Shown here: one piece after another, positions 3,210-25,161 of the stretch
Layout: each line of letters opens with the position of its first letter
Position numbering within the stretch: the stretch's first letter is position 1
NCBI GenBank assembly: GCA_030612185.1
Contig: JAUWOI010000003.1
Location: forward strand, 1 to 30,902
Length of the DNA: 30,902 bases
Direction: 5' to 3'
From: Anaerolineae bacterium
Lineage (GTDB): Bacteria > Chloroflexota > Anaerolineae > B4-G1
Translations under genes and position numbers: made by a program
The notes under the pieces: generated by a model
What the model was told of the DNA's origin: nothing
Seen by the model: only the letters and a program-made list of their open reading frames with translations
The model's database searches: none

Positions 3210-3331
3210 ACGAATTTCGTTTTACAGCGGATGTCCAATGGCTGAAGGAGGGACACGCCGTGGAGTTTGGAGTCGAGCAAACGCCAAAGGGACCAAGTGC
3301 TGTGGACGTTGTTGTGCTGAAAGACGGGTAG
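3149..3331 (+). pseudogene. Cold-shock domain fragment joined out of frame to the S3 piece
   Basis: The frame one base back from the S3 frame reads KRYCFIRRGDGLPDVFVHMN, then EGHAVEFGVEQTPKGPSA and VDVVVLKDG, ending at TAG 3329-3331. This is the RNP1-RNP2 and C-terminal part of a CspA-type cold-shock domain (compare KGYGFI, DVFVH, VEFEVEQGPKGPQA). The usual N-terminal strand (GTVKWFN) is missing, and no start codon with a ribosome site exists in this frame (stop at 3116-3118). Expression would require a frameshift from the S3 frame. No obvious slippery heptamer is present at the junction, so decay or recombination is favoured. Confidence 0.7.
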
Positions 3332-3484
3332 CGTTTCCTTACGCATAGGTGTTGCTCTGCCTGCCTCGGCAGGCGCTTGAGATCTCGCTCAGAGAATCTA
3401 TCCGAGAATCGTTCAGGGCGAATGAGAGTTGCTTGCCGGATTCTCTTTCGGTGGGAGTGACAGAGATCCCCGAATGGGCTCCTG

Positions 3485-3802
3485 ATGACCCCACCAAGGG
3501 CATCTGGGAAGCCCCGAGGGGCCTCCTATGTCGCTGCATTCGGTTTCGCCACTTTCGGCAGAAATGCCCAGTCCGCGCAAGTGATTTCCGCTACCTCCGC
3601 CTGTGGTTGGATCGGGGTGCCTACTTCTCCCAACTTGCTACCGCTTACCGCTGCGGCTTCGATCCTGTTCGCTGCCGCCGTGGGAGTCTGTGTGGCGCTA
3701 TCCCAGTTGGTGCTGGCGGTGGGCGTGACTGTACTGGTGCTTGTCACGCTGCGTGGTTTGGGTTTTGTGGAGCATTGGCTGGGACAGCGAGAGAAAGACT
3801 AG
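3485..3802 (+). pseudogene. Membrane-protein remnant, weakly MgtC/SapB-like
   Basis: The C-terminal half of this frame is strongly hydrophobic: LTAAASILFAAAVGVCVALS, then QLVLAVGVTVLVLVTLRGLG. It resembles the last helices of MgtC/SapB proteins (pattern LTTAAxxWxxAAxGxAxGxGxY followed by a V/L-rich helix). SAQVIS before it recalls the AQVVSGIGFLGAG motif but degenerates immediately. The N-terminal part (MTPPRASGKPRGASY) is not convincing and no good ribosome site precedes it. Probably a decayed gene fragment; family assignment is by eye and weak. Nothing further was seen at 3332-3484. Confidence 0.3.
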
Positions 3803-3826
3803 GAGAATGATGGTGAAGGTGATACT

Positions 3827-3946
3827 ATGAAAGTGAAAGCACCAGTTAAGCGCCGTTGCCCGAAGTGCAAGATTGTCAAGCGCAAGTGCGTGATATACGT
3901 GATCTGTGAGAACCTAAGCACAAGCAGAGGCAGGGCAAGTAGATAG
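3827..3946 (+). pseudogene. rpmJ (frameshifted): Ribosomal protein L36-like gene with a C-terminal frameshift
   Basis: The frame starts [20 protein letters not shown] and continues CVIYVICEN, the zinc-ribbon protein L36 (usual: MKVRASVKKICxxCKIIKRR, then [16 protein letters not shown]). After CEN it reads [10 protein letters not shown] and stops at 3944-3946. Adding one C after AACC (about 3914) would restore PKHKQRQGK followed by TAG 3940-3942, the normal L36 ending. The frameshift removes the conserved NPKH histidine, the fourth zinc ligand. The gene sits alone, away from infA/rpsM/rpsK, its usual partners. It could be a decayed second copy or a sequencing error. Confidence 0.75.
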
Positions 3947-3958
3947 AGATTTACTTAG

Positions 3959-5140
3959 ATGGAAGAGTTCAGACTACAAGAACAATCGCATAGGATTCGG
4001 TGGCTGCTGGATGAGGCAGATGAGCGTGGACATCTCACCTACGACCAGATATTGGAGGCCTTCTCCGAAGCGGAGGATGACACTGCTGCGTTTACGACTC
4101 AACTAGAGCAACTCTTTGCTTATCTCTATGATCACGGCATCGCTGTCTATGACAGCGAGGATGAGGAGATGGCTGCGAACGAGGAGCCGGGCGAAGATGG
4201 AGATCGTGGTGATGCCCCCGACCTGACCGGCGTCTCTAGCGACGATACCATCGGCTTGTACTTCGGCGAGATGAGCCGCGTGCCCCTTCTGACGCGCGAG
4301 GAGGAGGTGGAATTGGCCCAGCGGCTGGATCGAGGGCGAGAGGCCCAACGTGAGTTGGCCCGAAATGGCCATAACCTTCAGGAGAGGGTCAGGCTGCAAT
4401 GCTTGATCGAACAGGGGAGAAGCGCCCGCCAGCACCTCATCAAGGCTAACACCCGCCTTGTAGTGAGCGTTGCTAAGAAGTATAGAGGGCAGGGCCTGCC
4501 TTTCCTGGATCTCATCCAGGCGGGTAACCTGGGCTTGATCAAGGCGGTGGATAAGTTCGACTACCGACGGGGCACCAAAGTTGGCACCTATGTCACCTGG
4601 TGGATCCGTCAGTCCGTCACCAGGACCCTGAGCGAGCAGGGGCGCACCATCCGCATCCCTGTCCATATGAGCGACCGTATCAGGAGGCTCCACAAGATGG
4701 CACAAAGGCTGGAACAGGATTTCGGGCGTCGGCCTACCCCCGAGGAGATAGCCGAAGATGTAGGGCTAGAGCCTGGCACAGTGCGCTGGATGCTGCGCGT
4801 CTCGCGGTTACCGCTCTCCCTGGAGAAGCCGGTGGGCAAAGAGGGGAAAGCCGAGTTGGGCAGCCTCATTGAGGATGAGGCCGCCCCTTCGCCAGCCCAA
4901 GGCGCTGAACAGCATCTTCTGCGCGAAGAACTGGGGGAGATGCTGGACGCTCTCCCTCCTCGCGAAGCCCACGTCCTGCGCCTGCGCTTTGGTCTGCTGG
5001 GTGATCGCGGTTACACCCTAGAAGAAATCGGGCAGAAACTGGGCGTGACGCGGGAGCGCGCCCGTCAGATCGAGCGCCAGGCCCTCAGGAGGCTGCGCCA
5101 TCCGCATCACGGGCGTAGGCTGCGGAGTTACCTGAGTTAA
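3959..5140 (+). CDS. RNA polymerase sigma factor, RpoD/SigA family
   Basis: 393 residues. Residues ~10-60 are a short region-1.1-like helical segment (LTYDQILEAF, AYLYDHGIAVYD), followed by an acidic linker. Region 1.2 is DDTIGLYFGEMSRVPLLTRE (~95-115). Region 2 contains LIKANTRLVVSVAKKY, then GLPFLDLIQAGNLGLIKAV and the -10-recognition stretch GTYVTWWIRQSVTR (~209-222). Region 3 covers IRIPVHMSDRI through RPTPEEIAEDVGLE. Region 4.2 is YTLEEIGQKLGVTRERARQI (~345-375). Spacing fits a group 1 or 2 sigma factor. KVGTYVTWWIRQSV departs slightly from the usual KFSTYATWWIRQAI, so this may be a non-primary paralogue. No ribosome site precedes ATG 3959. A region-4 fragment follows immediately downstream. 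Confidence 0.95.
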   Translation: MEEFRLQEQSHRIRWLLDEADERGHLTYDQILEAFSEAEDDTAAFTTQLEQLFAYLYDHGIAVYDSEDEEMAANEEPGEDGDRGDAPDLTGVSSDDTIGLYFGEMSRVPLLTREEEVELAQRLDRGREAQRELARNGHNLQERVRLQCLIEQGRSARQHLIKANTRLVVSVAKKYRGQGLPFLDLIQAGNLGLIKAVDKFDYRRGTKVGTYVTWWIRQSVTRTLSEQGRTIRIPVHMSDRIRRLHKMAQRLEQDFGRRPTPEEIAEDVGLEPGTVRWMLRVSRLPLSLEKPVGKEGKAELGSLIEDEAAPSPAQGAEQHLLREELGEMLDALPPREAHVLRLRFGLLGDRGYTLEEIGQKLGVTRERARQIERQALRRLRHPHHGRRLRSYLS

Positions 5141-5177: not shown

Positions 5178-5339
5178 ATGTCCCGACAGATGACAATTGG
5201 CCAGAATCAGCACTCACTTGGGGAAATTGGGCAACATCTTGGCGTAACGCACGAGCGTGTACGCCAGATCGAATCAAAGGCATTCCGTATTCTGAGGACT
5301 CCGGGGTATAGGCGCAAACTACGTGATTTTGTCAGCTAG
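5178..5339 (+). pseudogene. Isolated sigma-70 region 4.2 (53-codon remnant)
   Basis: Just 37 bp after the sigma-factor stop, a small open frame from ATG 5178 reads HSLGEIGQHLGVTHERVRQI, then ESKAFRILRTP and YRRKLRDFVS with TAG at 5337-5339. It aligns residue for residue with region 4.2 of the full gene (YTLEEIGQKLGVTRERARQI ... LRHPHHGRRLRSYLS). The sequence has diverged, so this is a second sigma gene that lost its front part or an old partial duplication. Regions 1-3 are absent. A free region-4 helix-turn-helix could still bind DNA or a partner, but expression is unproven and the ribosome site is poor. Confidence 0.65.
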
Positions 5340-5443
5340 CAGGATCAGGGGGATAACCGTTCAGTCTTGAAACGTCTCAATCATTGAATGATAGCGGTGG
5401 GTTGTGGGTTGGTAACCTCAGTATATGCTTAAGGAGCAGGCAA

Positions 5444-5776
5444 ATGAAAGGACGAGAGATCGTCAGGAAATACAAGGCGGGGCAGCGTAACTTCTCCAAG
5501 GCTAAACTGCGCAAAGCCGACCTGGAAGGAGCCGATCTTCGCAAAATCAACCTGAGCCTGGCATACCTGGGAGAGGCCAACTTGAGCGGTACTAACCTGG
5601 CCGGGGCCAACCTAAAGGGGTGCAACCTGATTGAGGCCAACCTGCGCGATGCCAACCTGACCAAGGCTAACCTGCGCTGGGCCAATCTGTACGAGGCCGA
5701 AGTGACCAGTGCGCAACTTGCTCAGGCCAGATCACTCAAAGGTGCAATCATGCCGGAGGGTGGGAGACACAAGTAA
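5444..5776 (+). CDS. Pentapeptide repeat protein
   Basis: 110 residues. ATG 5444 is preceded by AAGGAG (5431-5436). From residue ~17 the protein is a run of A(N/D)LxxA-type pentapeptides: FSKAKLRKADLEGADLRKIN, then LSLAYLGEANLSGTNLAGAN, and onward to ANLYEAEV. About 14 repeats would form a short right-handed quadrilateral beta-helix. Such folds act as DNA mimics or scaffolds in some proteins; nothing here points to a particular target. There is no signal peptide, so it is probably cytoplasmic. The neighbours upstream are sigma-factor sequences, with no operon evidence. Confidence 0.85.
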   Translation: MKGREIVRKYKAGQRNFSKAKLRKADLEGADLRKINLSLAYLGEANLSGTNLAGANLKGCNLIEANLRDANLTKANLRWANLYEAEVTSAQLAQARSLKGAIMPEGGRHK

Positions 5777-5946: not shown

Positions 5947-6237
5947 GTGGGTATGGCTGGGCCGGAACTTGTTGATGGTAGAAACAGGCTTCAATTCAAT
6001 TGGAGCCGCCTATCGTTCAGAGGTGTCGCTGAGTTTGTGATCAAGCGTCTAACCTCGATGCTCAGTCGAACGCATCCCGTAATCTTGTTCAAACAGCCCC
6101 GTGCCGCCAAATGGCTGACGGGGGCTTGCTGGCTGGTAAGACGAGGTCTCATCAATAAAACTGGCCCATTCGACGAGAACCTGTTTATGTACGGTGAAGA
6201 GCCGGACTTGGGCGCATTTACCACTTGGGAGAGCAGC
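5947..6237 (+). pseudogene. Glycosyltransferase family 2 fragment
   Basis: A stretch of this frame reads AAKWLTGACWLVRRGLINKT, then GPFDENLFMYGEEPDLG. This is the conserved core of GT2 rhamnosyl-type transferases (WLTGACMLVRRE ... FDExFFMYxEDxDLC), including the acidic EEPD and preceding helix. The N-terminal nucleotide-binding part and everything after PDLG are absent. Coding similarity ends near 6213, 25 bp before an inverted-repeat element. A full GT2 has 250-350 residues, so this is a dead fragment left by deletion, flanked on both sides by repeat elements. Confidence 0.55.
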
Positions 6238-6334
6238 AGACCTCGGAGGTTTACACGGTGTTTTGCTTGACCAGATGCGCTGGTTGGAGCGGTTTTTGAG
6301 CCTGAAGATGGTCTTACGGAAACCTCCGAGGTCT
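6238..6334. repeat. 97-bp inverted-repeat element (15-bp perfect arms)
   Basis: AGACCTCGGAGGTTT at 6238-6252 is the exact reverse complement of 6320-6334, with 67 bp between. It sits between the truncated glycosyltransferase fragment and the start of the ATP-grasp operon (ATG 6371), so it could also affect transcription of that operon. The arms share the AGACC...GGTTT frame with the hairpin inside the ThDP enzyme gene at 14285-14318. Confidence 0.6.
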
Positions 6335-6370: not shown

Positions 6371-7363
6371 ATGACAAGCCTGAGAATTGGTTTATTAAAC
6401 AAGAAACGGGGAAACTTTGCGATTCAGGCAAAGTTCGTCGGTGCTGATGGCGTCGTTGATGAGACGGACGCCGAGGTGGAACATCACGAACAAGCGTTGA
6501 CTGAAGCCGGGTATAGCGTCCGTCGCATCCGTTGGGGACCAGATTTTGTCAAAGACCTGCAGGACTCACAGGTTGACCTTGTTTTTAACGTTTCCAGCCT
6601 GGTAGAAGCCGCGATCCTTGAAGAACTAGAGATATCCTACGTCGGGTCCGATACATTCACTATAGCCATCGCCAGCGATAAATCACTGGCGAAAAGGCTC
6701 TGGCAGCAAGTGGGCCTGCCGCCGTCGCCTTTCTGTGTGGCCAGATCAGAGAAGGACTGCAAGGTATTCAGGGACGATCCCCCGTTCGAGTATCCGCTTT
6801 TCATCAAGCCGGTAGCCGGCCGAGGCAGCGCAGGGATCAACGAGGCGTCCGTCGTCGACGACTACGGCCAACTGGTCAGTGGCGTCGTGGAAAGACTCGA
6901 GACTATCGGCCAACCGGTCCTCATAGAGAAGTTCTTGCAAGGGAGAGAAATCACCCTGGGGGTCCTGGGCAATGCAGACGCAAGAGTCCTTCCTCCCCTG
7001 GAGATCGTGTGCCGTGAAGGGGACGCTACCCTAACCTTTGAGAAGAAGGAACTCGATAACGATTCCTTCCTTTGCCCGGCCCCGCTGACCGCGGAAGAGA
7101 CCCATAAGACGCAGCGGTTGGCCCTCCAGGCCTACCGGGTGTTGGGTTTCAAGGACTTTGGCCGAATTGACACGATATTGACCAAAGAAGGGCCGTTCTT
7201 GTTGGAGGGGAACACGTTTGCGGGGCTGATGTGCACGCCCAAGGAAAAACCTCACAGTTACGTTGGTTTGATGGCTCGCGCGGAAGGAAAGGACGGCAAG
7301 GATCTGCTGGGTGAGATCATTCAGAGCGCTATTGAGAGACTCAGCTTAAAGACTCGAGATTGA
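6371..7363 (+). CDS. D-alanine--D-alanine ligase-like ATP-grasp ligase
   Basis: 330 residues. ATG 6371 follows GGAGGATG at 6353-6360. The fold is D-Ala-D-Ala-ligase-like ATP-grasp: an N-terminal Rossmann-like part (VDLVFNVSSLVEAAILEELE), SDKSLAKRLWQQVGLPPSPF, the ATP-binding strand YPLFIKPVAGRGSAGI, VLIEKFLQGREITLGVLG and the metal-binding end FLLEGNTFAGL. Genuine Ddl ends its metal motif EVNTxPGM, so EGNTFAGL suggests a different substrate. The family joins a carboxylate to an amine using ATP through an acyl phosphate. The next gene is a PLP racemase 1 bp away, suggesting that this enzyme couples a D-amino acid. Substrate unknown. Confidence 0.85.
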   Translation: MTSLRIGLLNKKRGNFAIQAKFVGADGVVDETDAEVEHHEQALTEAGYSVRRIRWGPDFVKDLQDSQVDLVFNVSSLVEAAILEELEISYVGSDTFTIAIASDKSLAKRLWQQVGLPPSPFCVARSEKDCKVFRDDPPFEYPLFIKPVAGRGSAGINEASVVDDYGQLVSGVVERLETIGQPVLIEKFLQGREITLGVLGNADARVLPPLEIVCREGDATLTFEKKELDNDSFLCPAPLTAEETHKTQRLALQAYRVLGFKDFGRIDTILTKEGPFLLEGNTFAGLMCTPKEKPHSYVGLMARAEGKDGKDLLGEIIQSAIERLSLKTRD

Positions 7364-7364
7364 G

Positions 7365-8537
7365 ATGCCAGCACCGCGGATAGAGATAGAACTCGACAAA
7401 CTGATACATAACGCCCGGAATCTGACGGCGCTATACGGCTCCAAGGGAATCCGCGTCACTGCTGTCACAAAAGGAGTCTGTGGATCCCCCAGGATTGCGA
7501 GTGCTCTGCTCAACAGCGGCATTCGTTCCCTCGGCGATTCGCGCATCGCCAACATCCAAAAGATGCGAGAGGCCGGGATAGATGCGCAATTCATCCTCAT
7601 ACGCTCCCCTATGCCCAGCGAGGTCGAGCGAGTGGTCGAGTTTGCCGACGTGAGCCTCAATACCGAAATCTCCGTCATCCGACTTCTTGCCGAGCACGCG
7701 GCCAAATGCGGCAAAATCCATCGGATCGTTCTGATGGTTGAACTGGGCGACCTACGGGAAGGCATACTGCCCTCCGACGTCGAGGCGGTGGTAAAGGAGA
7801 CGATTAGCCTGCAAGGCGTCAAACTGATAGGGATAGGAACAAACCTGGCCTGTTTCGGGGGAGTCAGGCCAACCGAGGCGAACATGCAAGAGTTGTCCTC
7901 GATTGCCGGCAACGTTCAACGGAAATACGGAATCAACTTTGAAATCGTCTCCGGGGGGAACTCGGCCAACTATCAGTGGTCCGTTTCGACGCCGGACGTC
8001 GGCCTCGTCAACCACTTGCGCATCGGCGAGGCGATACTGCTGGGTTGCGACACGCTAACCCGAGAGCGGATTCCCAGTCTGTATACGGACGCGTTCACGC
8101 TGGTCGCCGAGGTGATCGAGTTCAAGACAAAGCCCTCGCGGCCCTACGGTCAAATCGCCCAGGATGCGTTCGGCCACGTTCCCGCATTCGAGGACAAAGG
8201 AGACGTGAAGAGGGCAATCCTCGCCCTCGGAAGGCAGGACGTTGACGTATCGGCAATCAAGCCCAGGATAAAAGCAGACGTCCTGGGAGCAAGCAGCGAC
8301 CATCTGATTCTGGACGTCAAGGGGCCAGACCTGGAGGTCGGCGACGAAGTGCGGTTCGACGTCGGATATAGCGCACTGCTCAGAGCGATGACGTCGCCCT
8401 ATGTGGAAAAGGTGTACCTGCCCCGATCCTACCTGACGATACGGAGGTCCCCTTGTGCTGACTATCTACTCTACCGTGCAACGTGCCCATCGGCCCGCTT
8501 ACGTCATCAAACAAGGCGAGCGCTCCCCATCGTTTGA
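7365..8537 (+). CDS. PLP-dependent amino acid racemase (ornithine/alanine racemase family)
   Basis: 390 residues, starting one base after the ligase stop. The fold is the alanine-racemase N-terminal PLP barrel: IRVTAVTKGVCGSPRIASAL carries the probable PLP lysine (TKG), then SLGDSRIANIQKMREAGID, VELGDLREGI and the phosphate-binding FEIVSGGNSANYQW. YSALLRAMTSPYVEKVY is typical of the ornithine-racemase (Orr) branch, whose members are ~350-360 residues and end about here. The last ~35 residues (RSYLTIRRSPCADYLLYRAT onward) are unrelated and read over the start of the next gene by 83 bp, so the natural stop has probably been lost by a small indel. Likely makes a D-amino acid for the neighbouring ligase or dehydrogenase. 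Confidence 0.8.
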   Translation: MPAPRIEIELDKLIHNARNLTALYGSKGIRVTAVTKGVCGSPRIASALLNSGIRSLGDSRIANIQKMREAGIDAQFILIRSPMPSEVERVVEFADVSLNTEISVIRLLAEHAAKCGKIHRIVLMVELGDLREGILPSDVEAVVKETISLQGVKLIGIGTNLACFGGVRPTEANMQELSSIAGNVQRKYGINFEIVSGGNSANYQWSVSTPDVGLVNHLRIGEAILLGCDTLTRERIPSLYTDAFTLVAEVIEFKTKPSRPYGQIAQDAFGHVPAFEDKGDVKRAILALGRQDVDVSAIKPRIKADVLGASSDHLILDVKGPDLEVGDEVRFDVGYSALLRAMTSPYVEKVYLPRSYLTIRRSPCADYLLYRATCPSARLRHQTRRALPIV

Positions 8538-8754
8538 TGTGCCGGAGCGTGTTGACAGCATCCTGTCTGCCGTGAGAGAGATTGACGATCCGATTGGCAT
8601 TTTTCATCTCACAACGGCCGGCTTCAGTGAAATCGGCCGGCGTATTCAAACGCTAAGCGCACCCACGCTGGTCGTCCAAGAAGGCGGCTATTGTGTGCCG
8701 GATTTGGGACGAAATGTGGTGACTTTTCTGGAAGGATTGGCTAATTCAAGTTGA
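8455..8754 (+). CDS. Acetylpolyamine amidohydrolase/HDAC-family protein lacking its catalytic core
   Basis: 99 residues from GTG 8455, with GGAGG at 8442-8446. The N-terminus MLTIYSTVQRAHRPAYVIKQ plus SFDVPERVDSILSAVREI matches the start of bacterial acetylpolyamine amidohydrolases. From residue ~44, DDPIGIFHLTTAGFSEIGRR and TLVVQEGGYCVPDLGRNV match their C-terminus (DPISFFKLTSPDY; EGGYGVPEIGLNV). The ~240 residues between, which hold the His-Asp pairs and zinc ligands, are missing without breaking the frame. It should not be catalytically active. It is either a deletion allele, an assembly collapse or a repurposed stub. It overlaps the racemase by 83 bp and lies 16 bp before the dehydrogenase, within one operon. 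Confidence 0.7.
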   Translation: MLTIYSTVQRAHRPAYVIKQGERSPSFDVPERVDSILSAVREIDDPIGIFHLTTAGFSEIGRRIQTLSAPTLVVQEGGYCVPDLGRNVVTFLEGLANSS

Positions 8755-8770
8755 ACAAAGGAGATTCTGA

Positions 8771-9913
8771 ATGAACAATGATACACGTTACGCAGTTATC
8801 GGCGCCGGTCACGGCGGCAAGGCGATGGCCGCTGACCTGGCTGCCAAAGGTTTCACGGTGAACCTCTACAACCGCACCGCCGAGCGCATCAGTGAGATCG
8901 TCTTGCGCGGCGAGATTGATCTGGAGTACGAAAGCGGCGCCTCTCGTTGTTGCCGCCTGGCGGTCGTCACCTCTGACATCGCCGAGGCGCTTGATGGTGC
9001 CGATATAATCATGGTCGTCGTACCCGCTTCGGGTCACCGGGATATTGCCCGTAGTTGCGCCCCTCACCTGCGCGCCGGTCAGATCGTGATACTCAACCCA
9101 GGCCGCACCGGCGGGGCGCTGGAGTTCCACCAGATTCTCAACCGGGAAGGCTGCGCCGCCGACGTCATCGTGGCCGAGGCTGGCACTTTTGTCTTCGCCA
9201 GTCGCAGCACCGGCCCGGCTCAGGCCCGCATCTTCCGGCGCAAGAACGCCGTATCCCTGGCCGCCCTGCCGGCTACGCGCACCGGTCACGTGCTGGAGAC
9301 GGTCTGCGAAGCCTATCCTCAGTTCATCCCTGTCCCCAACGTGCTCCACACCAGTTTAGATAACATGGGGGCGATCTTTCACCCGGCGCTGACACTGCTC
9401 AACGCTGGGTGGATCGAGCGTACCAAGGGAGATTTTCAGTTCTACATAGAAGGTGTTACCCGCTCCACTGCCCACGTGCTGGAGGTGCTGGATCGGGAGC
9501 GGGTGACCATCGCCGCTGCGATGGGGGTGCGCGCTCGACCGGCGTTGAGGTGGTTAAGGGACGCTTACTCGGCGAAAGGGGAGACGCTGTACGAGGCGAT
9601 CCAGGGCAACCCAGGCTACCAGGGGATCAAAGCACCGCGCAATCTGCGCCATCGCTACATCTTTGAAGACGTACCTTTCAGTTTGGTGCCCCTGGCCTCG
9701 TTAGGCGTCCAGTTCGGTGTGGACACCTGGGCGATTGATGCAATGATTCGGTTGGCCTGCGTGATCCACGCCACCAACTACTTTGAACGGGGGCGCACGG
9801 TGGAGGATATGGGGCTGAAAGGACTGCGCGTCAGTGAGGTGAAGCGCTACATTCAGGATGGGGAGGTCAATCCAGTCTACAGCCTGGCCGGAGTGCGGAA
9901 TGGCGCCGCATGA
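8771..9913 (+). CDS. NAD/NADP octopine/nopaline (opine) dehydrogenase family protein
   Basis: 380 residues, with ATG 8771 behind AAAGGAG. The N-terminal Rossmann domain has [20 protein letters not shown] (GxGxxG type), then [17 protein letters not shown] and [13 protein letters not shown]. The C-terminal opine-dehydrogenase domain has [20 protein letters not shown], carrying the conserved Asn and His that bind the keto-acid partner in this family, and [20 protein letters not shown]. Such enzymes reductively join an amino acid and a 2-keto acid, or oxidise opine-like N-substituted amino acids. Being co-transcribed with a racemase and an ATP-grasp ligase suggests that an amino acid made by the operon is its substrate. 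The product cannot be told from sequence. Confidence 0.9.
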
Positions 9914-10191
9914 CGGCGACCAGAATCGCGATGACTGAAGACCATCCAGGTGTGTTCATCCACTACTCGGCCATCGAGGGAGGGGGGTTCCGCACGTTGT
10001 ACGAGGGCCAGCAGGTCGAGTTCGCTGTCGAGCAGGGCCCCAAAGGGCTGCAAGGCCATCCACGTGAGGATTCTAAGCCCGCTGTAGGCAGCCGTGTGCT
10101 GCACCTGAAGGAGAAAGGAATGAGCAGGCCGCCCTGCTGCCAGGCCAGCAGGGCCAATATTTGCCAGAGAGCCCTCAAGTCGCGAATTTGA
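9910..10191 (+). pseudogene. Cold-shock domain fragment, translationally coupled (ATGA overlap)
   Basis: The frame starts at the ATGA overlap with the dehydrogenase stop. Residues ~11-46 read [20 protein letters not shown], then [17 protein letters not shown], i.e. the second half of a CspA-type domain ([20 protein letters not shown] ... VEFEVEQGPKGPQA). The first strands (GTVKWFN and KGYGFI) are missing and the last ~45 residues are unrelated. A single cold-shock domain needs all five strands, so this is probably inactive. It is the second cold-shock fragment in the window. The DNA after it holds the tRNA promoter. Confidence 0.6.
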
Positions 10192-10230: not shown

Positions 10231-10303
10231 TCCTCGGTAGCTCAATTGGCAGAGCGACCGGCTGTTAACCGGTTGGTTGCAGGTTCGAGTCCCGCCCGAG
10301 GAG
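10231..10303 (+). tRNA. tRNA-Asn (anticodon GTT)
   Basis: A 73-nt cloverleaf. Acceptor TCCTCGG pairs with CCGAGGA (10296-10302), with discriminator G 10303 and encoded CCA at 10304-10306. The D arm is GCTCAATTGGCAGAGC. Anticodon stem ACCGG/CCGGT closes loop CTGTTAA with GTT at 10264-10266. The T arm has the TTCGAGT loop; its stem GCAGG/CCCGC contains one A-C mismatch, slightly unusual for a tRNA. It has its own promoter and terminator and no other tRNA beside it. Confidence 0.95.
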
Positions 10304-10311
10304 CCAGGCAT

Positions 10312-21174: not shown

Positions 21175-24100
21175 CTATTCTTGTTCTGGTGCGACGTTAC
21201 TAGGGAAAGCGGGAGACATGATCCGGCGGAAAAAGATGTCGCTGCTATCTTCCGCGTCTTGCAGCCAGGTGGCGTAAAAGCGGGAGCCGTCGGGCGTCAT
21301 GCGCAACTGCGCTTCGCCCTGCTCGGCTTCGCCCTTGGCCAGGAAATCCCAGCGGTACACGGTCTCTCCGGCCCAGTTGCCGCTGCTGTCGGGGTTCACA
21401 TCCCACGCCACCTCCACGTAGCTCTCGCCTCTGTCCTGGCTAAAACTGTAGTAGAGATCCAGCGGCGCCGGATACTCTTGTTCTTCGTCACTGTCGCCGT
21501 GGACGATGGGCGGGTTGGTGGACGTGCCATAACTGACATAGAACACGTTCTTGTCCTGCTTGTCCTCGGCGATGCCCGTCCACACGCCGTCTACCTTGAT
21601 CGTCCCCGGAGCCCCGACGATGCGCGGCTCGATCACGCTCTCTTTGCTGTTCGGTAGTTGAGAGACATTGCGCGCCTCCTCGAATTCACCCGCGGGATAG
21701 AAAGTGCAAACATCTTCTTTCACGATGTTGCCGTCAACGTCCCGAACTAGTTCGCCATCCTCATTCACGGTTTTGAAGACCTGGCAGTGTGTCACCCCAT
21801 CGCCAGCGGGGTCTGTCGTCCAGGTCTGCCCGCCGTCGAAGGAACGACGGATGTAAAAGTCGTACTTGTCGTTGCCGTTGCGGGCCGCCGCCCAGTTGGC
21901 CGTGTACGAGTAGCCCATCACGATAAAGTCACCGCGAATGGCACCCCGGTGGGCGCGCGCCTCTTCGTAGGGGTTTACCCACGAGGCGTTGTTCAGAGTC
22001 TCCGGTGTCTGCTCCCATGTCAGCACTTTGACGGCTCCCCATGGATCTTCACTGATGGGGTCGCCCATTGAAGGAGTTGTCGTGATGGGACTGACGGTGC
22101 TCATGTTCTGGGTGCCGTCCACGCAGACGGTCAGGCCTTCTACGTCTTCGCCGATGCTGTCGGCAGTCTCCCAATCGTCGCACACGATGTTATCGAACCG
22201 ATAGGGGTTCCCAGGGGTATCTGCCACAAAGCGGCGCAGCATGATGTCCGACGGGCGGCCCATGCCTTCTTGCCCTTCCTTGTACAGGACGACCATGACC
22301 GTCTCCGAGGCACCCATCGCGGCCTTGCCCTGGATGATGAATCGCGGCCGGCGCGCGTTCTCGTACGCCAGTTGCGGCTCGCCCAGGTAGTCGAGGATGA
22401 GGTCGCCATAGACCACATTGCCGTCGTCATCCAAGCTGACCTCTGTCTGGTACATCAGGTCCCCGTTTTCATCCCTTTCGGGCAGGTTGATGATATTCCC
22501 CGCGCTGACCAGGTCCGGGTTCTGGAAATCAAAACTGTGGTAGATGGCGTTCTTGCCCGTTTCGGGCAAGGGCGCATCGCCGTAGGGGCCGCCTTCCAGT
22601 TCGTGGTCCGGCGGGCCGATGCCGGCCCCCTTGGTCTCCTCGTAAGCCAGGATCGCCCAGGCGCTCTTGGTGCCGTCCGGCTTGGTGTAGGTCTGCAGGA
22701 AGACGTTCGCGCGCGAAGCGCCGGTGTTGCCGTCCAGCAGCCTGCCGTCCTCGGTGATGCAGACACTCTTCTCTTCATCCTGATAGTTGGTGAAATCGTA
22801 AAAGCCCTCGCACAACCCCTCGATCTCGTAGGCATAGGCGTGCGTGCCATCGGCGTCCTCTGCCGTTGCGTCAGGGTTCGTTATCGGGGTCCAGTTGCCA
22901 GCCTCATCTTCCACGGGATAGCCGTCCCCACCCAGTTCGACCAGCAGGTTGTCGGTGTTGACATTGTCATTGTCCGATAGCCGCACCGGCAGAGACATGG
23001 GAACCAGGGCCTTGGGGCGTCCGACAAATTCTTCATCTTCTGGAACATAGTGTTGGGGATCCCCGCCAGCCACAAAGTTCTCATCAACCGTGCGGAAATC
23101 CGCCATAGTGATGTAACTGTACCAGATGTCGGTCTTGTGGTTGGTGGTCGCGCCACCCCACCCCGGTCCGGGTCCGGCGGCGGCGCCAGGGCGCAAGCCC
23201 TCCGGGTCTTCCTGCCAGGCGATGGCGAAACCAGCGCCATCCGAGGCGCCCATAAAGACCTGGTTGGCGTCGCGCCGGCCAGAGGTCAGCCGCTCGGGCT
23301 TGAACCACTGGATGTCGCCGACTGATTTATCCGCCCAGAAACCACCGCTGTTGATCATGCCCTGGGTGACGATGGTGCCGCGCGCAACCCAGACGCAACT
23401 GTAGGGAACCTCGCCGACCTCAGGGAAACCCTGGTCGGTGTAATCCACGGACCGCTGCGGGCCGCCAATGCCCCAGATGTCATCCTTGTAGTAGGGGTCG
23501 TCGTAGGGGTAGTCAGGCTCGCAGACCTCGTTATCCCCGTCGCCATGGCACGTGATCCGGCATAATCCGGTCTCGGGGTCGGCAGTCTCGATCTCTTCGG
23601 TGTCCGGGTCGTCGCAGGTGGTGATCGCATAGGCCGGCTTGCCGCCGCTGCAGAACTTGCTCGTCCAGGCCACCATGATGTTGTTGCCCTTGACCTGGAA
23701 AACCGGTTTCTTGGCCTGGCCATAGTATTCCTCGCCGTTGGCCAACGTGAAGGAAGACCTGTCCGCCGCGCGCGATATATTCTTTCGCTTGAAGGTGTTG
23801 CCGTCGTCGCGCGAGATGGCTGCAAAGATGTCCTCGTTGCCGGTCTCCTCGACGCCGTCGGTATAGACCACGACGATGGGCTTGGCTTCCGTGGCCACTC
23901 GGATGAAGTCGCCATTCTCATCATAGTACGGGACGCCAGTGGCAGTAATCCCCGTAGTCGTAGAGATCACATATTCGGCAGGATCGTTGTTGGCTCTGAG
24001 GGCCGGGAACCACATGCCCATGATATTGAGTTTCGACTTGGAACTGGTCAGGTCCGGTGTTCGGGAGATGTCCTTGCGGAACATGTCTGTGTTCAGCGAG

Positions 24101-25161
24101 CGGTCCAGGTTCGCCTTGGCATCCTCTGCCGAGACCGCGACCAGGGTGACGCCTTCGACGCCTTCGCACTGGGCGATGGTTCCCTGGATCACAAATTCGG
24201 TCAGGTCGTCATCGGCAAAAAAGTCAACGCCCGTCAAACCCAGGTCTTGCACCGCCTGGTCGAGGCAAGCCTCCACGTCTTCTGTGATGCCGATACCTTC
24301 GCTCGGGTCAGCGTCGGCGTCCAGGCTTTGCAGGAGGCGCGCCATGTTGATCACTCTGGGGTCATCCGTGTCCGCGTTCTCATAGATATCCAGCGGAGAG
24401 ACCTTGTGGCCAGCCAGGGGCGTGCCCAGGTGCACCGAGCCAATGGCCAAGTCGACGCGCTCGCCGGGGAAGTAGTCGAAGCCGCCAGATTCGTCGGTCT
24501 TGCCCGCGTGGGTTGGCGTTTCAAAACTCAGGCCACCCACTGGAGAGTCGATAAAATGACCGCGCTGGGGATGGGCCATTTCGTATTTGAACCACCAGGC
24601 CCACCGCCCTCCGTCGAATGTGCCCTCCCCAAAGGCCCACGCGCCCTCCTCTTCGAGGACTCTGATCGTCTGCCCGTTCGTCGTCCCATCCGTATCGAGT
24701 TTGACCAGGTCAGCGTGGACGGCGATATTCTGGATACGCATGTACTCGTAAGGTTCACCCCATCTAAAACCCAGATCATCCACAAGATCCAGTACCAGCG
24801 TATAGTTGGGTGCTGGTTCAGGTAATTCTCCCTTGTAAGGGAATGCTCCCTGGTTGGGATTACCGCTCCTAACGGTTGGCACAGGGTCTGCGCCGACATA
24901 GATCTGGATCGTGTTGATCAGCCACTCATCCAAGGGTCCAACCTGGATGTGCAACTTTTCGCGCGAGTTAAAGACGCGAACCGTGCCGGCAGGATCATCC
25001 ATATACCGTCCGGCAATGAGGTCGGCGACGTGCAGTCCGGGGCCTGAAGCCCCAAACCAAGGCATCTCGGGCTCAGGGGGGCCAGCGTAGGCGAGCGGCA
25101 TGCCGCTCGTCAAAATCACCCCGATCAGTAAAAGCCCCATTATGCTTTTCGTAGCCTTCAT
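21175..25161 (-). CDS. Large secreted Asp-box / beta-propeller-like protein (possibly choice-of-anchor O type)
   Basis: 1328 residues. ATG 25161 has AAGGAG at 25180-25175. The signal peptide is SIMGLLLIGVILTSGMPLAY|AG. An N-terminal domain (~40-240) is beta-rich (REKLHIQVGPLDEWLINTIQ). The bulk consists of sialidase-type repeats with Asp-box wording: SRDDGNTFKRKNIS, RRSFDGGQTWTTD (~1130) and SQDRGESYVEV (~1260). It contains many Asp/Glu-rich loops and several Cys (CRITCHGDGDNEVCEPDYPY). Sialidase catalytic residues were not identified, so a binding or structural role is as likely as hydrolysis. The two-component pair just upstream on the same strand suggests regulated secretion. The choice-of-anchor O label is from memory and weak. 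Confidence 0.75.
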   Translation of the reverse strand: MKATKSIMGLLLIGVILTSGMPLAYAGPPEPEMPWFGASGPGLHVADLIAGRYMDDPAGTVRVFNSREKLHIQVGPLDEWLINTIQIYVGADPVPTVRSGNPNQGAFPYKGELPEPAPNYTLVLDLVDDLGFRWGEPYEYMRIQNIAVHADLVKLDTDGTTNGQTIRVLEEEGAWAFGEGTFDGGRWAWWFKYEMAHPQRGHFIDSPVGGLSFETPTHAGKTDESGGFDYFPGERVDLAIGSVHLGTPLAGHKVSPLDIYENADTDDPRVINMARLLQSLDADADPSEGIGITEDVEACLDQAVQDLGLTGVDFFADDDLTEFVIQGTIAQCEGVEGVTLVAVSAEDAKANLDRSLNTDMFRKDISRTPDLTSSKSKLNIMGMWFPALRANNDPAEYVISTTTGITATGVPYYDENGDFIRVATEAKPIVVVYTDGVEETGNEDIFAAISRDDGNTFKRKNISRAADRSSFTLANGEEYYGQAKKPVFQVKGNNIMVAWTSKFCSGGKPAYAITTCDDPDTEEIETADPETGLCRITCHGDGDNEVCEPDYPYDDPYYKDDIWGIGGPQRSVDYTDQGFPEVGEVPYSCVWVARGTIVTQGMINSGGFWADKSVGDIQWFKPERLTSGRRDANQVFMGASDGAGFAIAWQEDPEGLRPGAAAGPGPGWGGATTNHKTDIWYSYITMADFRTVDENFVAGGDPQHYVPEDEEFVGRPKALVPMSLPVRLSDNDNVNTDNLLVELGGDGYPVEDEAGNWTPITNPDATAEDADGTHAYAYEIEGLCEGFYDFTNYQDEEKSVCITEDGRLLDGNTGASRANVFLQTYTKPDGTKSAWAILAYEETKGAGIGPPDHELEGGPYGDAPLPETGKNAIYHSFDFQNPDLVSAGNIINLPERDENGDLMYQTEVSLDDDGNVVYGDLILDYLGEPQLAYENARRPRFIIQGKAAMGASETVMVVLYKEGQEGMGRPSDIMLRRFVADTPGNPYRFDNIVCDDWETADSIGEDVEGLTVCVDGTQNMSTVSPITTTPSMGDPISEDPWGAVKVLTWEQTPETLNNASWVNPYEEARAHRGAIRGDFIVMGYSYTANWAAARNGNDKYDFYIRRSFDGGQTWTTDPAGDGVTHCQVFKTVNEDGELVRDVDGNIVKEDVCTFYPAGEFEEARNVSQLPNSKESVIEPRIVGAPGTIKVDGVWTGIAEDKQDKNVFYVSYGTSTNPPIVHGDSDEEQEYPAPLDLYYSFSQDRGESYVEVAWDVNPDSSGNWAGETVYRWDFLAKGEAEQGEAQLRMTPDGSRFYATWLQDAEDSSDIFFRRIMSPAFPSNVAPEQE

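Follow-up and report, generated by a model that had tools for sequence, protein, structure and literature searches.

Glutamate mutase converts glutamate to 3-methylaspartate, the Clostridium ornithine racemase Orr is paired with a B12 mutase, D-ornithine aminomutase, and pyrrolysine is made by a radical skeleton rearrangement (PylB), an ATP-grasp amide bond formation (PylC) and an NAD(P)-dependent dehydrogenase (PylD). Among opine dehydrogenases (ODHs), six hot-spring metagenomic enzymes (mODHs) were characterised in 2024; they prefer L-Asp and L-Glu with pyruvate, a preference traced to Arg for Ala111 plus Gly for Asn198 through a two-way mutational switch, and Arg35 is linked to NADPH (PMC10787698). 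Published mODHs are reported to be strict for L-amino acids. Here we analyse a gene set at positions 6371-10191 of a stretch of 30,902 nucleotides from an Anaerolineae bacterium (contig JAUWOI010000003.1), the whole of which is called the window. An earlier note, made from this sequence alone, saw in the set a compact operon of an ATP-grasp ligase resembling D-Ala-D-Ala ligase (Ddl), an Orr-like racemase, a deacetylase stub and an ODH. Our comparisons suggest, with close to an even chance of being right, that the window carries the ligase-racemase half and the ODH of a conserved four-enzyme module, whose fourth enzyme, a B12-binding, glutamate-mutase-like protein here called c3, is known from related genomes and is absent from the window. 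Mutase and ODH would make an acidic opine-type amino acid, to which the ligase would couple a D-amino acid.

The window frames were scored against Pfam and NCBIfam profiles, and the families proposed for the ligase, racemase, deacetylase and ODH were confirmed by matches to Dala_Dala_lig_C, Ala_racemase_N/Orr, Hist_deacetyl and Octopine_DH, respectively. Species genomes were then scanned with two 8-9-residue patterns taken from close relatives, with which distant members may be missed. The scan gave 48 loci (loci and genomes carry our own L and G numbers), 32 of the ligase family at 51-86% identity and 16 Ddl-like at 26-36%. The 32 loci were named from Chloroflexota, Heimdallarchaeota, Neomarinimicrobiota, Armatimonadetes, Spirochaetales, Clostridiales, Aminicenantes and others, and nearly all are metagenome bins, among which single cases may be misbinned. 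The racemase directly follows the ligase in 23 of the 32 (split over two frames in L003, L012 and L027), a recurrence which indicates that the gene set is more than a chance arrangement. Six of the other nine loci end within ~130 bp of the ligase or inside it, and L010, L011 and L021 continue without a racemase, the ligase itself being broken in L021. The ODH was found in cis in 10 and c3 in 11 of the 32 ligase loci. The earlier note had named scattering of these genes in related genomes as evidence that would count against it, and this came out in part: ligase and racemase stay together, whereas the ODH, where it is not in cis, lies with the mutase elsewhere in the genome.

The c3 protein is a fusion of a B12-binding domain and a barrel of the glutamate mutase E (GlmE) type, and it is encoded beside the ODH in related genomes. 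The ODH lies on the same strand within the flank at 65 of the 70 c3 places fetched; two of the remaining five have it after two genes, none was seen in L055 and L071, and L175 (the L032 contig) ends before the ODH place could be seen. The nearest fetched relatives of the window ODH (82%; 79% over a partial gene) adjoin c3. A long form of 1,214-1,241 aa, fusing the S, E and L parts and ~35% identical to c3, also adjoins ODH genes in L122-L126, with a GlmL/MutL domain at its C-terminus in L122 and L126, the two that were scanned. Some c3-type proteins carry source labels such as methionine synthase or methylmalonyl-CoA mutase subunit, and besides c3 a genuine GlmE is present in G016 and a further GlmE-family gene in G003. 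In L024 (3817-6657), a histidine kinase with B12-binding and PocR domains and an AraC-type response regulator stand upstream of ODH-c3-ligase, a pair that would provide possible B12-sensing control of the module.

Ligase and c3 also occur in the same genomes. Eighteen ligase genomes, drawn from the 32 loci, were tested for c3; 16 gave a match (E<=1e-30), G006 through the longer form only. Group samples, each named after the bin on which it was centred, were counted for c3 with the long form included. In the class of the Anaerolineales bin G002, 5/298 genomes carry the ligase and 91/298 carry c3 at E<=1e-100 (~17 of the 91 only in the long form, by a count of frame lengths), and four of the five ligase genomes have both. 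All six ligase genomes in the class of the Heimdallarchaeota bin G013 have both genes (ligase 6/58, c3 24/58 at E<=1e-100), the same 2/199 genomes carry ligase and c3 in the phylum of the Neomarinimicrobiota bin G009, and the single ligase genome in the class of the Spirochaetales bin G015 has both (ligase 1/297, c3 8/297). One-sided Fisher p values were 0.032, 0.0033, 5e-5 and 0.027, respectively, and are optimistic, because the samples include centre genomes chosen with both genes, relatives are not independent and the long form is counted. With the centres removed, c3 was present in 3/4, 5/5 and 1/1 ligase genomes of the G002, G013 and G009 samples, and no ligase genome was left in the G015 sample. 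The ligase is thus one branch within a more widespread c3-ODH pairing. At the level of sequence, these comparisons establish the module, the linkage and co-occurrence of its genes, the folds of its enzymes and the conserved or altered residues of their pockets, and the four-gene module is well supported.

The window ODH (8771-9913, plus strand) matched PF02317 (Octopine_DH) with 170.6 bits as well as NAD-binding families and keeps the His204-Asp300 dyad. Its closest solved structure is the enzyme CENDH/ArODH (1bg6), at 288.8 bits. Arg112 and Gly200 occupy the ArODH 111 and 198 positions, and Arg35 is also present, so that the residues are those of the acidic-amino-acid, mODH-like type. In the alignment, the Arg/Gly pair was found in 9/9 ODHs of ligase loci (nine of ten used, the partial L010 being left out) and in 56/56 ODHs of c3 loci (56 of 60 loci gave usable length), where the gene of L051 is the same as that of L002 and is counted in both groups. 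The pair was found in 0/7 controls, which were plasmid-borne Pseudomonadota ODHs of 27-34% identity, two of which were shortened to the matched part because annotation was missing. Gly alone occurred in 2/7 controls and Arg35 in 5/7, so Arg35 is not specific. Among the five long-form loci, Arg was found in 4/5 and Gly in 5/5; the exception, L126, has Cys and is also without the catalytic His in the alignment. The pair predicts an acidic amino-acid substrate for the window ODH, and an acidic amino acid is the expected substrate of a glutamate-mutase-type enzyme too.

The window ligase (6371-7363, plus strand, 330 aa) matched PF07478 (Dala_Dala_lig_C) with 97.7 bits and the Ddl model TIGR01205 with 116 bits, under its cut-off of 245.65. 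It reads EGNTFAGL, as the earlier note had stated, and the claim drawn there, that it is not a housekeeping Ddl, held up. The alignment comprised 16 family members, DdlB (1iov) and, taken from the same genomes, 14 Ddl rows, two of them identical. In the tree, the 16 ligases and the Ddl rows form opposite sides of one 100/100 branch, so the clustering with housekeeping Ddl that the earlier note had set as its refutation was not seen. Ser150 and Tyr216 of DdlB, which we take to be donor-site residues, are altered: Ser150 is Gly in 16/16 ligases (Ddl rows: Ser 12, Cys 2), and Tyr216 is Glu in 15/16 and Lys in the other (Ddl rows: Tyr 12, Phe 2), the window ligase having Gly152 and Glu227 at these positions. 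Lys104, Lys146, Glu186, Arg265, Asp267, Glu279, Asn281, Gly285 and Ser296, comprising ATP/Mg and acceptor residues, are conserved in 16/16; the equivalents of the acceptor-site Arg255, Gly276 and Ser281 of DdlB are kept, and an extra loop follows the ENT motif. These pocket residues lead us to infer that the acceptor would still be a D-amino acid and that the donor would be another, larger acid, for which the product of c3 and ODH would be a natural candidate.

A role of the cell-wall or glycopeptide-resistance type, in which ligase and racemase make a D-Ala-D-X dipeptide and the ODH is incidental, would agree with the Ddl fold and the conserved acceptor-site residues. It would also agree with the three bacterial bins (G007, G008 and G014) in which no Ddl above cut-off was found, a lack equally explained by bin incompleteness. 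A genuine Ddl above cut-off co-exists in 13 of the 22 ligase genomes, and the window-type ligase is the only Ddl-type match in the six genomes of the Heimdallarchaeota class. This sole occurrence in the Heimdallarchaeota class, the replacement of both donor-site residues, the low Ddl score and the co-occurrence of the ligase with c3-ODH all speak against such a role, which was already disfavoured and to which we give hardly any credence. Score, tree, pocket residues and presence in archaeal bins led us to reject a housekeeping Ddl or van-type ligase.

The window racemase (7365-8537, plus strand), of the Orr-type fold-III pyridoxal phosphate (PLP) class, matched Ala_racemase_N and, over 2-351 of 351, the Orr model NF040742 with 408.6 bits; this is the nearest named family despite a score below the cut-off of 480. 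Its conserved part runs to ~8450 and is followed by a 3' extension of ~25 codons: relatives in L002, L004 and L006 end at 365 aa, the window frame extends ~25 residues further, and by eye it differs from L002 by a one-base frame difference near the 3' end. The next frame (8455-8754, plus strand) is the remnant of an acetylpolyamine-amidohydrolase-like deacetylase, matched by Hist_deacetyl only at positions 243-296 of 298 and below its cut-off. Compared with the 345-aa gene of L002, it consists of the first ~42 and last ~57 residues of the intact protein joined in frame. The ~243 codons lost between them include the catalytic core, present in L002, with the active-site histidine and aspartate motifs, zinc-binding ones included. 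The gap may be a real deletion or an assembly fault. In 19 loci the sequence continues for more than 300 bp past the racemase, and in three of these, L002, L004 (split over two frames) and L006, a deacetylase follows. The deacetylase, which the earlier note had taken as a working part, is therefore an accessory gene of a few Chloroflexota loci that is broken in the window, and it was rejected as a core enzyme.

In the pathway that we favour, c3 would act on an acidic L-amino acid, or on the opine made from it, and rearrange its carbon skeleton through adenosylcobalamin (AdoCbl) radical chemistry. The ODH would use NADPH to condense an acidic L-amino acid reductively with pyruvate into an N-(1-carboxyethyl) amino diacid; the Orr-type racemase would be the source of a D-amino acid, and the ligase would activate an opine carboxylate with ATP and couple it to this D-amino acid at the latter's amino group. 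Here we infer the substrates, the order and direction of the steps and the purpose of the module. The earlier note had proposed a D-amino-acid dipeptide or an opine-like metallophore or osmolyte. An opine-like product containing a D-amino acid fits and could be a metallophore or an osmolyte, and the mutase partner had been missed. Its statement that no described pathway combines these families agrees with our search of the open-access literature, in which no such pathway was found. No paper there joined glutamate mutase or methylaspartate mutase with an opine or octopine dehydrogenase, subscription journals lying mostly outside the search, and none combined ornithine racemase, ATP-grasp and cobalamin, or opine, racemase and ATP-grasp in a gene cluster.

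Several observations weigh against this pathway. c3 was not found in the window, and its presence in this organism is assumed. The protein is, by sequence, a distant relative of glutamate mutase E: in a direct PF06368 search it exceeded the cut-off of 26.6 in one of nine c3-bearing genomes (28.1 bits) and in none of the other c3 scanned, and precomputed PF06368 matches exist for part of the 120 homologues listed. Arg66, Arg100 and Arg149 are the substrate arginines of glutamate mutase. The first two align with His163 and Gln197 in 67/67 c3 rows (66 usable frames from 67 loci plus the L029 reference, which L052 repeats), and the alignment is uncertain at the third; these replacements suggest that the c3 substrate is probably not plain glutamate. 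G001 and G004, two of the 18 ligase genomes, are without c3, and in G177, which carries ligase and racemase, no c3 was found at E<=1e-100. Most c3 genomes in turn are without the ligase, as the counts of 91/298 and 5/298 in the class of G002 show, which implies that c3-ODH has a life of its own. The Arg/Gly signature may just mark an ODH clade, the controls being distant, and, given the L-strict mODHs, the ODH probably does not use the racemase product. Finally, some neighbouring genes, for peptide transport, aminotransferases and an aldehyde dehydrogenase in L003 and for a peptide-binding protein and a C45-type hydrolase in long-form loci, give a catabolic hint.

For the neighbourhoods, longer stretches were taken, 18 and then 11 more, and only ~45 neighbours were annotated by Pfam. 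Clustering of 51 stretches gave no group of proteins found in more than three of them other than ligase, racemase, c3, ODH and deacetylase, and DUF72/DUF2148 was seen in two loci among the annotated neighbours. In L003 (70-9187), ligase-racemase is preceded on its own strand by genes for a dipeptide-type ABC transporter (permease and ATPase), two aminotransferases of class III and an aldehyde dehydrogenase; the ligase locus L007 holds a relative of the aminotransferases, and the transporter genes have relatives in L124-L126. In these three loci, the long-form c3 and the ODH have as neighbours an SBP_bac_5 peptide-binding protein, an AAT/C45 hydrolase and an RpiR regulator. In L187 (439-10343, on a 3.55-Mb contig), ODH-c3 lies in an operon with flippase, DegT, nucleotidyltransferase and dehydratase genes and is followed by a PF13535 ATP-grasp ligase. 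The presence of this different ligase after ODH-c3 suggests independently that their product gets ligated, and the operon product is perhaps an opine-decorated sugar.

These neighbours bear on the main rival, a catabolic module for opines or peptides that are imported and cleaved, in which the ODH works oxidatively to release an acidic amino acid and pyruvate, c3 isomerises the amino acid for fermentation, and ligase-racemase is a side branch. The binding protein, hydrolase and regulator beside long-form c3-ODH, the L003 genes preceding ligase-racemase together with their transporter relatives in L124-L126, and the action of glutamate mutase in fermentation would all suit it. However, an ATP-consuming ligase beside a racemase and the sugar-nucleotide operon around ODH-c3 in L187 point to synthesis, the hydrolase and binding-protein neighbours belong to the ~35% identical long type, and the L003 arrangement occurs in one ligase locus, with ~45 neighbours annotated in all. 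We consider the catabolic explanation unlikely, and prefer the synthetic pathway.

A further rival is the synthesis of a staphylopine-like opine metallophore, with racemase, joining enzyme and ODH making a metal-chelating iminodiacid peptide that is exported and re-imported. This logic of racemase, coupling enzyme and ODH is shared with zincophore clusters, which also use MFS exporters and dipeptide-type importers (PMC7438024). An MFS protein before ligase-racemase in L190, an HlyD-type protein after the ligase in L011 and the dipeptide-type transporter genes upstream in L003 are in line with it. But beyond the five families named above no cluster recurs in more than three of the 51 stretches, and the window ODH, a PF02317 protein, gave no PF10100 (CntM-family) match at E<=0.01, so that a metallophore appears quite improbable. 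An intracellular compatible solute, an anionic opine amide accumulated under osmotic stress, would account for a protein with the mechanosensitive-channel helix (MscS) encoded directly downstream of c3-ODH in L186 (4844-5569) and L189 (3375-4061), both from the class of the Spirochaetales bin G015. Several loci come from BS150m and CSMAG isolates, names of Black Sea and cold-seep series. Only two loci, which are related, show the channel neighbour, however; in L187 the pair belongs to a surface-sugar operon, and the 32 loci also include LacPavin isolates, from a freshwater lake. We hold an osmolyte to be very improbable.

In the window itself, the five plus-strand frames described in the earlier note are as stated, two junctions being gaps (1 and 16 bp) and two being overlaps (83 and 4 bp). 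The fifth frame (9910-10191) encodes a cold-shock domain without its N-terminus (profile 21-59 of 66) and is apparently unrelated to the set, which is bounded downstream by tRNA-Asn (10231-10306). Other gene fragments flank the set. A sigma-70 region 4 fragment (5196-5336) has 53% identity to the end of the full sigma factor gene just upstream (3959-5140), and a frame without a Pfam match (5947-6270) resembles by eye a piece of a family-2 glycosyltransferase and is probably a gene fragment. A pentapeptide-repeat protein (5384-5776) stands upstream of the ligase, and a 45% relative is also upstream of the ligase in L002. With the truncated cold-shock domain between ODH and tRNA-Asn, the stretch of 5.1-10.2 kb is an apparent patchwork of whole and partial genes. 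Such a patchwork could mean that the four genes are fortuitous neighbours in a decaying region and have no common pathway, as the partial sigma-70, cold-shock and deacetylase genes that surround and interrupt the set would suggest. Yet the ligase, racemase and ODH genes are complete, the catalytic residues of ligase and ODH are preserved, and the linkage recurs in other phyla, which makes a chance assembly extremely improbable. In L006, a phage-type integrase (3327-4283) lies immediately upstream of the ligase; together with the tRNA beside the window set, it hints that ligase genes move by integration. Elsewhere in the window, a 1328-aa open frame on the minus strand (21175-25161) has no Pfam match at E<=1e-5.

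We tentatively propose, with somewhat less than an even chance, an undescribed AdoCbl-dependent opine pathway in Chloroflexota, Heimdallarchaeota and other phyla. A fused mutase with a new substrate, an acidic amino acid or an N-carboxyethyl opine, and a dedicated acidic ODH would make a branched iminodiacid, to which, in some genomes, a re-purposed Ddl ligase would add a D-amino acid. If this is true, it would be the first B12 mutase in opine metabolism within the searches made and a B12-based parallel to the logic of PylBCD. It would also give a common unnamed gene pair, c3-ODH, a concrete reaction, provide a new substrate class for AdoCbl carbon-skeleton mutases and a biological setting for acidic-amino-acid ODHs so far studied as biocatalysts, and show the Ddl fold re-used in archaea for a purpose other than the bacterial wall. 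It would suggest, too, that the D-Ala-D-Ala ligase labels carried by members of this ligase family are wrong.

Compared with the described systems, the PF02317 fold and His-Asp dyad are common to the window ODH, the mODHs and CENDH/ArODH of Arthrobacter sp. 1C (1bg6). The mODHs carry the Arg111/Gly198 pair in all six cases and Arg35 in all but one, and the window ODH has both features; the comparison is one of reported residues, and the sections drawn on describe no mutase, ligase or racemase partner (PMC10787698). Whereas glutamate mutase consists of GlmS, GlmE and GlmL, c3 has S and E in one chain, with His and Gln for Arg66 and Arg100, and it mostly falls below PF06368 detection. The window ligase shares with DdlB the ATP-grasp fold, the ATP/Mg residues and the equivalents of acceptor-site Arg255, Gly276 and Ser281; its family differs in the changes of Tyr216 to Glu and Ser150 to Gly, the extra loop after the ENT motif, its separate clade and its presence in archaeal bins. 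Like Clostridium Orr and D-ornithine aminomutase, an Orr-type racemase here shares its genome, and often its operon, with a B12 mutase. As in the staphylopine-type CntK-CntL-CntM system, a racemase, a coupling step and an ODH share one cluster; here, however, an ATP-grasp ligase replaces the nicotianamine-synthase-like CntL, the ODH is of PF02317, the partner is a B12 mutase and no transporter cluster recurs. PylB-PylC-PylD follows the same order of chemistry as the module, in which the mutase uses B12, not radical-SAM, and ligase and dehydrogenase come from different families. The pyrrolysine pathway was considered for this parallel and rejected, since pyrrolysyl-tRNA synthetase (PylS) was found in 0/22 ligase genomes by a search which, as a control, found it in Methanosarcina acetivorans. 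Each enzyme of the module is a member of a known family or similar to one, and the scheme as a whole is like that of opine metallophore and pyrrolysine synthesis.

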